In this document: positions 397 through 6,057 of the stretch, piece after piece | How positions within the stretch are numbered: the first letter of the stretch is position 1 | Layout: every line of letters begins with the position of its first letter | Notes under the pieces: generated by a model | Told to the model about the DNA's origin: nothing | What the model saw: only the letters and a program-made list of their open reading frames with translations | The model's database searches: none | Translations under genes and position numbers: made by a program | From: Candidatus Zixiibacteriota bacterium | GTDB lineage: Bacteria > SM23-81 | Direction: 5' to 3' | NCBI GenBank assembly: GCA_030628225.1 | Contig: DAOVRJ010000155.1 | Location: 1-6,057, forward strand | DNA: 6,057 nt

Positions 397-1329
397 TCAG
401 GACGCTCCAGATCGGCGGCGGCGGTAATATTCAACGGTCCTCTGGATACCCTCGTCCAGGTTCACTTGAGGCTTCCAGCCCAGTTCCTTTTGAGCCTTGG
501 CGCTGTCCAAACAGATCCGGTGTATCTCGCCCAATCGCTCCTGGGTATAGATGGGCTCGATCTCGGTGGCCAGATGCTTTTTCAGGGCAGCGAAAATCTG
601 ATTTACGGAGATCTCCCGGCCCCATCCCAAATTCATAATCTGGCCGTCGCCCCTCTTAATGGCCAGCAGATTGGCCTCCACGATATCTCCCACGAAGACG
701 TAATCTCTTGTATGCGTGCCATCGCCATAGATGGTGGGGCGCTTTCCAGCAAACAGAGCTTCGGTGAAGATGGCCACCACCCCCGCCTCCCCAAGAGGAT
801 CCTGCCGGGGCCCGTAGACGTTGGGATATCGCAAAATAGTGTAGTTCAAGCCGTGGTTGTGGCGGTACAGATACAGGTAGTGCTCCACGGTATGCTTGGT
901 GATACCATACGGGCACAGGGGATGAATGGAGTGACTCTCATCGGCAGGCAGAGACTCCGGTTCCCCGTATACGGCTCCGCCCGTGGAGGCATAGATGACT
1001 TTCTTGATATCGTGTTTGGCACACAGTTGGAGAAGGTTCAGAGACCCCAGCACATTTACCTGAGCATCGAACACGGGGTCCGTTACGGATTTGCGAACGT
1101 CTATCTGGGCAGCATGGTGATCCACCAGATCCGGCCTTTCCTTTTCAAAAACCTCTGCCAAACCGGGGTCTCGGATGTCCAGTTGATAAAAGGTGGCTGC
1201 GGGATTGATATTCTCCCGGAAACCAGTGGACAGATCATCTACGATGACCACTTCATACCCCTCGGCGATGAGCCTATCGGCGATGTTGGAGGCGATGAAG
1301 CCAGCTCCTCCGGTGACCAATATCTTCAT
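397..1329 (-). CDS. GalE-like NAD-dependent sugar epimerase/dehydratase (extended SDR)
   Basis: A 310-residue extended SDR, most like UDP-glucose/UDP-N-acetylglucosamine 4-epimerases, acting on nucleotide sugars in the cytoplasm. It shows MKILVTGGAGFIAS (Rossmann motif, 6-13), VDDLSTGFREN (30-40; Asp31 at the end of strand 2 is typical of NAD binding) and DLVDHHAAQIDVRKSVTDP (67-85). The active-site residues are in YASTGGAVYGEP (113-124; Ser115/Thr116) and YGITK (Tyr141, Lys145). RYPNVYGPRQDP (167-178), IYGDGTHTRDYVFVGDIVEA (200-219) and the C-terminal LGWKP (283-287) are also family hallmarks. The third glycine of the usual GxxGxxG is Ala13, a conservative change that is also found in related epimerases. 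It sits 17 bases after the rmlD-like gene and 37 bases before the next SDR. Epimerase activity is the best guess; a 4,6-dehydratase or decarboxylase role is less likely. Confidence 0.88.
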   Translation of the reverse strand: MKILVTGGAGFIASNIADRLIAEGYEVVIVDDLSTGFRENINPAATFYQLDIRDPGLAEVFEKERPDLVDHHAAQIDVRKSVTDPVFDAQVNVLGSLNLLQLCAKHDIKKVIYASTGGAVYGEPESLPADESHSIHPLCPYGITKHTVEHYLYLYRHNHGLNYTILRYPNVYGPRQDPLGEAGVVAIFTEALFAGKRPTIYGDGTHTRDYVFVGDIVEANLLAIKRGDGQIMNLGWGREISVNQIFAALKKHLATEIEPIYTQERLGEIHRICLDSAKAQKELGWKPQVNLDEGIQRTVEYYRRRRSGAS

Positions 1330-1337
1330 TCCACCTT

Positions 1338-1343
1338 CCCCTC
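1338..1343 (-). promoter_or_regulatory. Ribosome binding site deciding the start of the GalE-like gene
   Basis: GAGGGG on the minus strand, 8 bases before ATG at 1329. The open frame continues 82 codons further upstream to 1575, but that part overlaps the rmlD-like gene and has no homologous look. This SD plus the Rossmann motif directly after ATG fixes the start at 1329. Confidence 0.65.
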
Positions 1344-1346
1344 TTT

Positions 1347-2210
1347 TTATGATTGCTCCTTCAGGAGGCGGTTCTTGATGTAATCCTCTAGCGCCTCCTC
1401 CCAGGAACGCATCCAGTCCAAACCCATCAGATGTAACAGATAATCTCGGATGCCCTCCATTCTGGGCCTGGGGGCTGGAAGGGAAAAAGCATCGGAGCTG
1501 ATGGGTTCCAGGAGATGATTTGGAATGCCCACCAATTCCACGATCTTCTGGGCATATTCGAATCGACTGCAGCAACCCTCATTGGCCATGTGGTAGGTAC
1601 CATACCATCCCGTCTCCACCAGCTTTAATATTCCCCGGGCCATGTCCACCGTATAGGTGGGAGAGCCGAACTTGTCATCGACCACCTGCAATTTCTTTCC
1701 CTGGGCGGCCAGGTTGATGATCTTGCCGACGAATTTCTTGTCCCGCTCTCCTCCTCCGAACATCCAGCCAGCCCTGACGATATAATGCTCCTTCAGCAGC
1801 TCTCTCACAAGCAGCTCTCCCTGGTACTTGGCTTTGCTATATTCGCTACGGGGATGGGGAGTATCGAACTCCGTATAGGGCTCGTTCTTGGTACCATCGA
1901 AAACGGAGCCCGTGCTGATATAGACCATACAGGCATGAGCGTTTTGACAGGCCAGGGCCAGATTTTTTGTGCCGATGGCATTGGTTAAAAAGGTCTGGTC
2001 CGTCATGCCCTGGCAACCATCCACATTGGTCATGGCGGCCAGGTGCAAAACCAGATCTGGTTGAGTCTGCTCGAAGACGGCGGAAATAACCTGGGGATCC
2101 CTGACGTCCATCTCCTCCAGGTCAGTGGCCACCACCTGGTGTTTTTCGGCAAAAACAGGACACAAATCGCTGCCCAGCATGCCCTTTGCTCCCGTTACCA
2201 GAACTTTCAT
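1347..2210 (-). CDS. RmlD-like dTDP-4-dehydrorhamnose reductase (extended SDR)
   Basis: A 287-residue SDR of the RmlD/RfbD group, which in the classical pathway reduces dTDP-4-dehydro-L-rhamnose to dTDP-L-rhamnose with NAD(P)H. Visible features are the nucleotide-binding TGAKGMLG (6-13), a short second strand ending in TDLEEMDVRD (29-38) as in RmlD, PDLVLHLAAMTNVDGCQ (51-67), the catalytic STGSVFDG (99-106; Thr100) and YSKAK (Tyr124, Lys128). The RmlD-typical KFGSPTYTVDMA (180-191) and a late APRPRMEG (246-253) follow. The length matches the family (about 280-300). The gene ends 17 bases before the GalE-like start. No rmlA, rmlB or rmlC is visible in this window, so the substrate may be dTDP-rhamnose made elsewhere, or a related 4-keto-6-deoxy sugar. 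RmlD-like proteins also include the MAT2B and spore-coat SpsK relatives. The fold assignment is firm and the substrate is inferred. Confidence 0.88.
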   Translation of the reverse strand: MKVLVTGAKGMLGSDLCPVFAEKHQVVATDLEEMDVRDPQVISAVFEQTQPDLVLHLAAMTNVDGCQGMTDQTFLTNAIGTKNLALACQNAHACMVYISTGSVFDGTKNEPYTEFDTPHPRSEYSKAKYQGELLVRELLKEHYIVRAGWMFGGGERDKKFVGKIINLAAQGKKLQVVDDKFGSPTYTVDMARGILKLVETGWYGTYHMANEGCCSRFEYAQKIVELVGIPNHLLEPISSDAFSLPAPRPRMEGIRDYLLHLMGLDWMRSWEEALEDYIKNRLLKEQS

Positions 2211-2314: not shown

Positions 2315-3538
2315 CTAACTGGCCAGCGCCCTGTCGTAGGCCGTCATCAATTTCTGGTAGTGAGCCTCTACGCTGTACTTCCTCTCCACCTTTTCCCGGG
2401 CATTTCTGCCCATCTTAATGGTCCCTTCCGGATCGCAGGCCAGACGCTGAATCCTGTCCCTGAGGCCCTGCTCATCACCAGGGTTGAAAAGCAACCCATC
2501 CCTGCCGTGAGTGATCAACTCCGGGATCCCTCCTATTTGGGCTCCGATGACCGGCTTGCCCAGAGCAAACGACTCCAGAATCGAAAACGGACAGTTCTCG
2601 TACCACTCGGAGGGCACGACCACGAAAAGGGAGTTGCTGATCGCCTGCTTCAACTTTTGTCCCCGCAAATAACCGACAAACTCAACATCGCTGAGCCCCT
2701 CTTGTGCTGCCAGATCCTGAAGAGCACTTCGCAGCAATCCCTCGCCGATGATCAGCAACTTTAACCCCTCCAGGCCCCGCATGGACCGGATCAGGGTCAT
2801 CACGCCCTTCTCGGAAGAAAGCCGCCCAAAATAGACGCAGTAGTTTTCCCCGCCATATTGAGGTGTGTAGGCATCGGTGTCGATGAAATTGGGCAGATAA
2901 AAGACGGGCACATCGGCAATACCATTCTCGCGCAGCTTCCGGCCCAGAAATTGGCTGGGCGTGATGTACAGGTCTATATTCCGGCGGTAAAGACCCAAAG
3001 CTCGATGGGTGTACATTTCCAGCACGTTAAGCAGACTGGCCGAGAGAGAGCCTTTATTGCACCTCTGCAGGGCGGCGTGGTAATAACGCCCTCCGCGACA
3101 CCTCTCGCACACCTGTCCTTTGGTCAACATGGAGTAAGTGGGACAAATCAGTTTATAATCGTGCAAGGTTTGAACGACGGGAATGCCTAGCTTTTTCAGA
3201 GAATGAAGGATCGACGGCGATATCTGATGGGCGATGTTGTGAAGATGGGCCAGATCCACTCGCTCTCTTCTCAGGAGCTTTTCTAATCTCCTTCTGGCCT
3301 GACGAAAATAGATCACTCTGGGGATGATCTCTGCCTTCGCACGCAGAGAGTGATCCTTGTTGAATTCCACGTTGTTAACAAAGTACCGCGTGTACGGCGT
3401 CGGTCTGTTACGCTCATCCCGCATGGCAAAGGGAATCACGCGGTGCCCTTTGGCTTCAAGCATCTTTTTCGTCTCGAAGAAACTCCGCTCAGCGCCACCG
3501 CGCAGATAGTAAAATTTGTTGACGAACAAAACCTTCAT
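2315..3538 (-). CDS. Glycosyltransferase family 4 (GT-B fold)
   Basis: A 407-residue cytoplasmic or peripheral membrane enzyme, predicted to transfer a sugar from a nucleotide donor to the growing lipid-linked oligosaccharide with retention of configuration. The N-terminal acceptor domain carries the GT4 opening MKVLFVNKFYYLRGGAER (GGAE at 14-17), DLAHLHNIAHQISP (95-108) and TLHDYKLICP (124-133). A cysteine set follows: C132, C144, C147 and C160. The C-terminal donor domain shows YFGRLSSEKGV (236-246), LLIIGEG (261-267), and the EX7E signature E314-E322 within VPSEWYENCPFSILESFALG, followed by GKPVIGAQIGGIPELI (327-342). The length is normal for the family. The start is the family-typical ATG, but its SD is weak (AGAGAG at 3551-3556, 12 bases away), so translation may depend on the frame just upstream. 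Donor and acceptor cannot be inferred. Confidence 0.93.
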   Translation of the reverse strand: MKVLFVNKFYYLRGGAERSFFETKKMLEAKGHRVIPFAMRDERNRPTPYTRYFVNNVEFNKDHSLRAKAEIIPRVIYFRQARRRLEKLLRRERVDLAHLHNIAHQISPSILHSLKKLGIPVVQTLHDYKLICPTYSMLTKGQVCERCRGGRYYHAALQRCNKGSLSASLLNVLEMYTHRALGLYRRNIDLYITPSQFLGRKLRENGIADVPVFYLPNFIDTDAYTPQYGGENYCVYFGRLSSEKGVMTLIRSMRGLEGLKLLIIGEGLLRSALQDLAAQEGLSDVEFVGYLRGQKLKQAISNSLFVVVPSEWYENCPFSILESFALGKPVIGAQIGGIPELITHGRDGLLFNPGDEQGLRDRIQRLACDPEGTIKMGRNAREKVERKYSVEAHYQKLMTAYDRALAS

Positions 3539-3547
3539 CAGAATACG

Positions 3548-3637
3548 CTACTCTCTTGTAATGGCTAGCAAGTCCACCAATACTTTGGGCTGAAAGCTGT
3601 TTCCAGAACCATCCATGCCGGTAAAGGCGATGATCAT
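3548..3637 (-). pseudogene. Relic of a thymidylate-kinase-like P-loop NTPase gene (29 codons, damaged Walker A)
   Basis: On the minus strand the flippase stop overlaps a new ATG (ATGA, 3634-3637). This opens a 29-codon frame that ends in TAG at 3548-3550. The peptide begins MIIAFTGMDGSGNSFQPK and continues VLVDLLAITRE. The pattern beta-strand, G-x-DGSG-[K]-S-[T]-Q, then a hydrophobic helix (KxLVDLL), is the start of thymidylate kinase and thymidylate-kinase-like proteins, where the usual sequence is DGSGKSTQ. Here the Walker A lysine is Asn (residue 13) and the following Thr is Phe (residue 15), so nucleotide binding should be lost. The remaining roughly 170-200 residues of such a protein are absent, because the glycosyltransferase starts 9 bases after the stop. 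I infer an internal deletion plus point decay. It may still be translated as a short coupling or leader frame. The homology rests on a short stretch and was judged by eye. Confidence 0.72.
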
Positions 3638-5100
3638 ATCTTGGTTCCCGGATGTCTCGGTTTTATTCTCTCTGGTGTCCACCCGAGTACTAAGGACTTC
3701 AGGGAACCTCCGAAAAGATAGTTAAAACCTGCTAGCACTGCGCCATAAAAAATGATGGCTGAAAGAATAGTTATCAGCAACCCGTGCTCTTTGCCGATAA
3801 GGAGCAAAAAACCAGCCAGAAAAAGACTAGACACGATGGGTTTCCAGGTTACCCTGGGAATGGAGACCGCAAAGACCTTCTTGGAGACGAGTCCATAATG
3901 GAGCGTAAAGGAGATGATGTGGCTGGCCAGAACCGCCACTCCAGCACCCATGAGCCCAAAGTCATAGATCAATACAATACTGAGAGGAAAAAGGCAGGCT
4001 GAGTTCACCATGAGGATAACCAGGTTGGCCTTCTGCTGGCCGCTGGCCAGCAAGAGACCTCCAAGAATCTTGTTGAAACACATAGGAACTAAGATCCATC
4101 CCAGAACCCGCATCACTGGAGCCGCCGCCACGAACTCTTCTTTGTACACCAGCAGTATGGAATCGGCCAGGAAGAGGAAACCCACCGCCAGTGGGAGCGC
4201 CAGGGAAATGAGAAATTCGATGGTGCGCTCGGCATATTGTTTAAATCTGGCCAAATTCGTCCTATAGGTTCTGGAGAGGACGGGATAGACCACCTGCCAG
4301 AGACTCATGGACATAAGCATGAAGAAATTGGTCAACTGAAAGGCCGCGTTGTACAGCCCCACTTCAGCCTCCCCCCGGAGCTTGGACAAGACAATAACAT
4401 TTACCCTCAGAAAAATGATGGAGAAAACGCTGATACCCAGAAATATGGTGGCGACTTTGGCCAATTTTCGACAAAAACTCAGGTCGATGACCCAGCAGGG
4501 TCTGGAAAAATAATGGTAGATGAAAGACCACTCGATCAGCAACGTGGCTCCCTGAATCATCACCAGCAGGCCGATGATCTGTATCAAACCGGATCCCCGC
4601 GATAAAAGCAGCCAGATCAGCCCAATCTTGGCCAAATTAGCCAAAGCAAAGGTGTAGACAATGAACTGCATGCGCTCGAAGGCCTTAAATATTGCCTCGC
4701 ATACTGTACACATGGCAAAGGGGATCAGGGCCAGCCCCAAAAGATAACTTGCCTTGACTACCTGGGGGGAATAACCCAGCAGGTGAACGAGCAGGGCCCA
4801 CAAACCCAGAGAAACCAGGGATGACATCAGAACGATAAGGTGGCCGTTGACCAAATATTTGCCGAAATCCGACTTGTTCTTGGCCACCTCTCGCACGATG
4901 AGATCAGTAAGGCCGAAGATGGCCGGCACTTGAAAAATAATGTAAAAGGTATACACCAGGGAAAACTGGCCAAAGAGCAAAACGCCCAGATGGCGAGCGA
5001 TGAGAATATAGAGCACAAAGCTCGCCCCTCGCTGTATCAGCAAGGCGCCGGTCATGGCCATGGAATTTCTGGCCAGTTTGCTGATTGTGGTTAATCTCAT
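3634..5100 (-). CDS. Wzx-type polysaccharide flippase (MVF/oligosaccharyl-lipid flippase superfamily)
   Basis: A 488-residue, strongly hydrophobic protein that is predicted to flip undecaprenyl-PP-linked repeat units from the cytoplasmic to the periplasmic face of the inner membrane. The N-terminus has the family pattern: a short basic stretch (KLARNS), then a first helix around residues 17-37 with ARHLG and FGQFSLVYTF (44-53), as in Wzx/RfbX proteins. Further hydrophobic segments lie near 55-70, 85-108, 117-137, 148-166, 171-195, 214-236, 248-272, 296-318, 328-352, 358-379, 384-404, 420-436 and 440-463, about 12-14 helices as expected. The segment EVGLYNAAFQL (246-256) followed by a polar turn is also typical. 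The start is fixed by GAGGA (5108-5112) 7 bases upstream of ATG. The stop TGA overlaps the ATG of the next small reading frame (ATGA). The region looks somewhat more AT-rich than the SDR genes, which is common for wzx genes. Confidence 0.9.
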   Translation of the reverse strand: MRLTTISKLARNSMAMTGALLIQRGASFVLYILIARHLGVLLFGQFSLVYTFYIIFQVPAIFGLTDLIVREVAKNKSDFGKYLVNGHLIVLMSSLVSLGLWALLVHLLGYSPQVVKASYLLGLALIPFAMCTVCEAIFKAFERMQFIVYTFALANLAKIGLIWLLLSRGSGLIQIIGLLVMIQGATLLIEWSFIYHYFSRPCWVIDLSFCRKLAKVATIFLGISVFSIIFLRVNVIVLSKLRGEAEVGLYNAAFQLTNFFMLMSMSLWQVVYPVLSRTYRTNLARFKQYAERTIEFLISLALPLAVGFLFLADSILLVYKEEFVAAAPVMRVLGWILVPMCFNKILGGLLLASGQQKANLVILMVNSACLFPLSIVLIYDFGLMGAGVAVLASHIISFTLHYGLVSKKVFAVSIPRVTWKPIVSSLFLAGFLLLIGKEHGLLITILSAIIFYGAVLAGFNYLFGGSLKSLVLGWTPERIKPRHPGTKI

Positions 5101-5242
5101 GCACGGATCCTCGTCAGTGTGAAAAACCGAGGCTCACCGGGAGCTAAGAAAGAGATCCTAAGCCTTAAAGCTGCTATCTCACCTTTTCCATTTCTCCTTG
5201 GAGAATCCAACAGTTCCCAGGGCCTCTCTTCTATTAGGCAAG
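5101..5242 (-). other. 142-base spacer between ligase-family gene and flippase
   Basis: This is the longest non-coding gap in the window. Apart from the flippase SD it holds a short imperfect inverted repeat (TTCTCC/GGAGAA, 5192-5205) with a loop too small and no T-run. I see no convincing -35/-10 pair. A frame stays open across it, but the peptide is not recognisable. Confidence 0.4.
5108..5112 (-). promoter_or_regulatory. Ribosome binding site of the flippase gene
   Basis: GAGGA read on the minus strand, 7 bases before the ATG at 5100. It supports that start rather than the internal methionines at residues 14 and 16. Confidence 0.6.
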
Positions 5243-6057
5243 CTATCCCTCCTTCGTTTGCAACAATCGTTCTCGATTTATCTTCCCGGTGGCCACCACC
5301 AGGCCAGCCAAGACCCATAAATCGGCGTGCCGCCCAATGTAGGCTGGATCCACTAGCCAGTGAGCCCACAAGGCGGCCATGCCCCCCAGGATGCCGATGT
5401 TGATGAGACTTGTAAAAGAATCTCTTGCCTTAGTGTTTCTAAGACCCTGCAAGAAAATGGAGCTCAGTAACCAGAGAAAGATAATTAGCCCCGGAATGCC
5501 CATCTCGGCAGCCTTCAGCAGATATGCATTATGGACTATATAGGGAGCTACGTACCCCAAGTTGGGGTTGTAAAGGTGCATAATTTTCCAGTAATTTTTA
5601 ACCCCCACTCCCAGGAAAGGATGGGCCCTGATGATGCTGAGGGCCACCTTGTTCAGGGGCATCCGGCCCTGGGCCGCCCCGTAGTCCTCGCCGAAGAGCC
5701 GAAGCCGGATCAGGCCGGAAAAGCCAAGACTGATGCCGCCGAAGATGGCAATTATCACGGCGATGACCACCAAAGTCCGTAGGCTGATCAGTTTGGCCCG
5801 TAAAATGAGCAGAAAAACAAGGCACATTGATCCCACAAAACAAACCCACCCGCCGCGGGACAGGGTCAACAACAACGTGCTGAGGGCACAGATGAAGACC
5901 AGGCCACTGGCCAGCTTATGCCGCAGCTTGATCTGGGTGAACAGGAGGACCACAGACAGGGGGATAAGCAGTTCCATATACTTGGCCAAACTGTTTGGGC
6001 CTCCAGAGGTCCCCCACACCCTGGATATGGGGATATAATACCTAATGAAAAAGACAA
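5243..6057 (-). CDS. O-antigen ligase/polymerase family membrane protein, C-terminal part (5' end outside window)
   Basis: The protein belongs to the O-antigen ligase (WaaL/Wzy_C-like) family of polytopic inner-membrane proteins, which polymerise repeat units or transfer a finished glycan from undecaprenyl-PP to an acceptor on the periplasmic face. The frame stays open to the window edge, so the true start lies beyond it; the GTG at 6019 is an internal valine codon. About 270 residues are visible. In order they show a family-typical G-x-NS-LA-KYMELLIPL segment, a hydrophobic helix ending in TLSRGGW (visible residues about 64-70), two more membrane helices, and a large loop with RAHPFLGVGVKNY and the conserved VHNAYL...AEMGIPGL motif (His at about visible residue 175). 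Three C-terminal hydrophobic segments follow. The stop is TAG at 5243-5245, and 142 bases separate it from the flippase. Sequence alone does not separate ligase from Wzy-type polymerase. The location next to a Wzx-type flippase fits either. Confidence 0.88.
   Translation of the reverse strand, partial: VFFIRYYIPISRVWGTSGGPNSLAKYMELLIPLSVVLLFTQIKLRHKLASGLVFICALSTLLLTLSRGGWVCFVGSMCLVFLLILRAKLISLRTLVVIAVIIAIFGGISLGFSGLIRLRLFGEDYGAAQGRMPLNKVALSIIRAHPFLGVGVKNYWKIMHLYNPNLGYVAPYIVHNAYLLKAAEMGIPGLIIFLWLLSSIFLQGLRNTKARDSFTSLINIGILGGMAALWAHWLVDPAYIGRHADLWVLAGLVVATGKINRERLLQTKEG

Follow-up and report, generated by a model that had tools for sequence, protein, structure and literature searches.

Probable relic of a thymidylate-kinase-like gene between wzx and a GT4 glycosyltransferase gene in a polysaccharide operon of Candidatus Zixiibacteriota

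The window analysed here is the whole of a 6,057-base contig (C250) from a Candidatus Zixiibacteriota genome of 2.34 Mb in 306 contigs. It carries a minus-strand polysaccharide operon with the gene order Wzy_C protein, wzx flippase, GT4 glycosyltransferase, RmlD-like reductase, epimerase and second epimerase (Table 1). Between wzx and the GT4 gene lies a frame of 29 codons, which encodes MIIAFTGMDGSGNSFQPKVLVDLLAITRE and ends with TAG. Its ATG (3637-3635) shares bases with the wzx stop codon TGA (3636-3634) as ATGA, and its TAG (3550-3548) closes nine bases before the GT4 start codon at 3538. An earlier note on this DNA had described a minus-strand 29-codon frame with an ATGA overlap at the flippase stop, and both the coordinates and the peptide are as claimed there. 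The frame is the only kinase-like stretch in the window. It lacks the full domain of about 200 residues, the DRY motif and the LID region.

Table 1. Features of the 6,057-base window and the evidence for each
Feature	Position	Strand	Evidence or remark
Wzy_C polymerase/ligase	5243..6055	-	Runs off the contig end; syntenic in G001
wzx flippase (Polysacc_synt)	3634..5100	-	PF01943, E 3.5e-27; 70% identity to G001 wzx
Relic, 5' part	3571..3639	-	Homologous to L019:13226 down to about 13156, just after G001 wzx
Thymidylate-kinase-like remnant frame, 29 codons, then TAG	3548..3637	-	Sequence, kinase resemblance, homologous G001 remnant
Relic, 3' part	3539..3577	-	Homologous to 41 bp of G001 that precede its decayed GT4 start; junction of the deletion at about 3571-3577
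GT4 glycosyltransferase, intact, downstream of relic	2315..3538	-	PF00534, E 1.8e-29
RmlD-like sugar-nucleotide reductase, same operon	1347..2210	-	Syntenic in G001
NAD-dependent epimerase/dehydratase	397..1350	-	Syntenic in G001

The resemblance of this frame to thymidylate kinases was assessed in several ways. A frameshift-tolerant alignment of the gap between wzx and GT4 with a profile of intact relatives scored 44.6, against a mean of 16.0 (sd 2.3, maximum 23.4) in 200 shuffles. With an ordinary HMM built from nine kinase-like polysaccharide-locus proteins, the frame was the sole match in the window (E=0.005 over 20,000 frames). This match falls at the kinase N-terminus, and the frames that matched better in the same search were intact kinases and other P-loop proteins. 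All seven PDB matches of the 29-residue peptide were thymidylate kinases, aligned at their N-termini, each of them weak alone (best E 0.086, 2plr). The likeness to the starts of thymidylate kinases that the earlier note had described holds. Scans of the peptide against Pfam and NCBIfam gave no match, which is unsurprising for a query of this length. In a plasmid collection, the peptide found weak matches only (E 0.3-8), some of them annotated as dTMP kinases, and a polysaccharide-locus kinase query found none.

Could the resemblance be mere chance? Such motifs can arise randomly: of the three genome-wide matches to FTGMDGSGK[S/T], one (L052) falls within a protein that is unrelated. The single-peptide matches are also weak. 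The profile score, however, is far beyond the shuffles, a homologous remnant is present in a related genome (G001, see below), and elsewhere intact kinase-like genes occupy the position of the relic. The strand and the GMDGSG..S of the relic match beyond chance, but asparagine stands at the Walker lysine, where the G001 remnant has lysine. A coincidence is thus extremely unlikely, and on these sequence comparisons it can be regarded as excluded for practical purposes.

As in the thymidylate kinase superfamily (PF02223 / TIGR00041), the start of strand 1, the Walker A region G-M-D-G-S-G and the start of helix 1 stand equally far from the N-terminus. Unlike in that superfamily, the Walker lysine is replaced by asparagine, and nothing of the family, neither the DRY motif nor the LID, follows past about residue 25, so that the relic is no kinase. 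The earlier note had pointed to N and F standing in place of K and T. The change from lysine to asparagine does break the Walker A pattern GxxxxGK[S/T], but phenylalanine after the serine is permitted by it. With asparagine in place of lysine and the later motifs absent, the predicted peptide cannot bind ATP as P-loop proteins ordinarily do. A role as a protein is very unlikely; it would have no catalytic capacity and would at most hand ribosomes from wzx to GT4.

As for the subfamily of the lost gene, the relic scores 42-55 against the polysaccharide-locus group and 36-49 against housekeeping tmk of other genomes, but the scores overlap and the roughly 25 comparable residues are too few to fix it. 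The genome's own tmk (L002) is a poor match to the relic. In the genome, PF02223 matches above the cut-off were limited to this tmk and to a deoxynucleoside-kinase-like protein encoded after folK, and neither a second copy of the relic nor an intact polysaccharide-locus kinase was found in it. A search of genome_contigs with the wzx protein gave no match. We infer that the lost gene may have been a member of the polysaccharide-locus kinase group and not a copy of housekeeping tmk.

The closest comparison is provided by G001, a genome of the same family and a different genus, which shares the gene order of the window. Its wzx-rmlD interval (L019:13220-12576) is about 646 bp long and is without an intact GT4 gene. 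The DNA directly after its wzx aligns with the relic with a score of 48, where 2000 shuffles reached a maximum of 35, and this syntenic site is the best match to the relic in all 19.9 kb of L019. In the matching frame, the G001 remnant reads YIVFAEMKGS*KS. Lysine is kept at the Walker position, where the relic has asparagine, an in-frame stop lies one codon before it, and an indel upstream shifts the frame. The two remnants differ at 3/3/4 sites by codon position in 12 aligned codons, while the intact wzx genes of the two genomes show identities of 0.76/0.87/0.60. The start of a GT4 homologue is found about 360 bp past wzx in G001 (MKVLMVSKFYCKRG, 71% over 14 residues, E 0.002). This GT4 gene (L019:12860-12576, minus strand) has decayed, and only its start can be recognised; the window gene is intact. 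In the middle of the G001 gap, no residual kinase similarity was detected, even with frame shifts allowed, and the gap alone did not score above shuffles.

As the G001 copy is frame-shifted and broken by an in-frame stop, the relic peptide does not represent a small protein conserved between the two genomes. The earlier note had considered that relatives might keep the same short peptide, which the G001 copy speaks against. The differences between the remnants are read from sequence as decay and not as those of a conserved peptide; this decay, with no sign of purifying selection on the frame, is seen in one relative. A related possibility is that the frame was retained because it encodes a working small protein or couples translation from wzx to GT4. 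The frame opens in the wzx stop and closes nine bases ahead of the GT4 start, and in G001 a closed frame goes together with a decayed GT4, as polarity would predict. This explanation is nevertheless very improbable: the G001 counterpart is shifted and interrupted, the differences are spread evenly over codon positions, coupling requires no kinase-like sequence, and the comparison involves two cases.

Like the window, G001 thus has a homologous remnant after wzx and a homologous GT4 start in the same operon; unlike the window, it has about 250 bp more between the two ends. An anchored alignment of the bases preceding the two GT4 starts scored 18, which was reached by 2 of 2000 shuffles and is modest support. 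The relic appears to consist of the first ~70 bp of the gene joined to ~39 bp before GT4, with about 250 bp missing relative to G001. The last ~10 residues of the frame probably come from the far side of the deletion and not from the original helix. The earlier note had proposed a reduction of the gene to its first 29 codons by deletion and point changes. The reduction stands, but only the first ~22 codons would be original, with the tail probably from beyond the deletion.

Polysaccharide loci frequently exchange pieces. A fragment of tmk or of another polysaccharide locus might have arrived by recombination, so that a complete gene was never present here, and no intact copy was found at this site. 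We consider this highly unlikely, since G001 has the fragment at the same place together with the additional sequence between its ends. Moreover, the first codon of the fragment is a kinase start codon, probably coupled to wzx in the manner of a resident gene, and the genome's own tmk matches the fragment poorly.

The relic is 72% identical between the two genomes, compared with 43-67% at fourfold sites of the neighbouring genes (P about 0.01-0.02). Late and separate losses in the two lineages are hinted at by this difference, which is too weak for such a claim. The wzy-wzx spacer (window 5101-5242, minus strand), which is without an assigned gene, can also be aligned to G001, with a score of 44 and a shuffle maximum of 33. 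As this spacer still aligns, alignability alone is no proof of late decay.

Intact relatives were sought by motif and by similarity. The degenerate DNA pattern for F[TS]GxDGxGK[ST]T matched in none of 386 genomes and was probably too strict. The genome-wide pattern FTGMDGSGK[S/T] gave three loci, and later relatives came from protein and profile searches. In two of the three loci, from a Dehalococcoidales genome (L050) and an ANME-1 archaeon (L051), kinase-like genes sit in a polysaccharide setting with many genes of the GT4 type; as both were found by the motif, their special closeness to the relic is partly by construction. The third (L052:2821-2849, FTGMDGWGKS) is a chance match within an unrelated protein of a Thermosynechococcus MAG and serves as a control for motif-only searches.

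Intact kinase-like genes of about 225 residues occur in polysaccharide loci of several phyla. In L110 (G634) and L112 (G640), wzx is followed directly by a kinase-like gene of 223-229 residues and then by a polymerase-like gene, which was confirmed as Wzy_C in L110; the start codon of the kinase-like gene aligns with that of the relic. The PF02223 E-values of these two proteins are 8e-6, which narrowly misses the Pfam cut-off, and 1e-7, which passes it. In L057 (G275), the kinase-like gene directly precedes a GT4 gene that is 41% identical to the window GT4 over the full length, and that of L102 (G486) stands one gene ahead of a window-type GT4. A 902-residue fusion in G427 (L103:3384-6092, plus strand) combines an NTP_transf_5 nucleotidyltransferase (PF14907), a thymidylate-kinase-like part and a GT4. 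When the nine-protein profile was compared with solved structures, thymidylate kinases were the best match, and they were also the best by fold for a predicted model of the L050 protein (pLDDT 63.5, modest confidence). The intact relatives are probably kinases, as predicted from sequence, and their adjacency to flippases and GT4 genes and the GT4 fusion point to a predicted step in polysaccharide synthesis.

The relic shares its N-terminal sequence with the proteins of L050, L051, L057, L102, L110 and L112, where it reads FTGMDGSGK in L050 and L051. It lies between wzx and GT4, and these genes adjoin wzx and/or GT4. Unlike the relic, these proteins have about 225 residues and a DR[YF]xYD motif, although L051 is apparently truncated at its C-terminus. 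Most of their genes also adjoin a 'DEGxK' glycosyltransferase or phosphodiesterase family gene, which is not seen in the window.

The earlier note had expected intact copies in relatives. Such copies exist in polysaccharide loci, after wzx (L110, L112) or before GT4 (L057), but none was found at the exact wzx-GT4 site in any close relative, in a phylum that is thinly sampled. A kinase-like query gave no match in either of two further genomes of the phylum besides G001. Of the best homologues of the window GT4, only that of G275 had a kinase-like gene upstream in its locus, and the short wzx-polymerase gap of L111 showed no clear kinase remnant.

Taken with the decayed G001 copy at the same place, the intact polysaccharide-locus relatives support the central proposal of the earlier note, namely that a kinase-like P-loop gene once sat here and has since been reduced. 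With good confidence, the frame is the relic of a thymidylate-kinase-like gene that was resident between wzx and GT4 and was lost mostly by internal deletion. We infer the original length of this gene (about 220 codons), its coupling to wzx, probably translational via ATGA, and any residual coupling role. In the lineage of the window, an internal deletion would have brought the first ~22 codons (strand 1, the P-loop and the start of helix 1) up against the few dozen bases that lie ahead of GT4, and asparagine would have replaced the lysine of the P-loop. Indels and a stop would account for the decay of the gene in the sister genus, where the GT4 gene has decayed as well.

As an object, the relic is an ordinary pseudogene relic, one more decayed gene of a variable polysaccharide locus, and its value is that of a pointer to recurring kinase-like genes. 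These are the more interesting thread: in several phyla, polysaccharide loci repeatedly encode thymidylate-kinase-like proteins, beside flippase and GT4 genes or fused to GT4. A search of an open-access library of papers found none describing this association. A wider reading is that the relic marks a widespread, undescribed thymidylate-kinase-like enzyme that takes part in making polysaccharides. In some cases joined to a nucleotidyltransferase and to a GT4, this enzyme would phosphorylate a substrate other than dTMP and be readily lost, with the leftover frame still coupling the translation of wzx and GT4. Taken as a whole, this reading is unlikely. Should these proteins prove to phosphorylate an intermediate such as a sugar, a lipid or a glycan, an overlooked step in polysaccharide synthesis would become testable.

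Two further arrangements were observed in the loci with intact genes. L110 and L112 each contain two kinase-like genes (L110:4393-5754 and 7334-8023; L112:4361-5719 and 7375-8046; all on the plus strand), a nucleotidyltransferase-like fusion kinase just before wzx and a lone kinase just after it. In L058, L063, L065, L066 and L102, the kinase-like gene is the middle member of a recurring trio; it follows a glycosyltransferase with an early DEG(F/I)K motif and precedes a phosphodiesterase-type gene (VIxGIDALD/GIDGMD), and this trio is present in more than one phylum.
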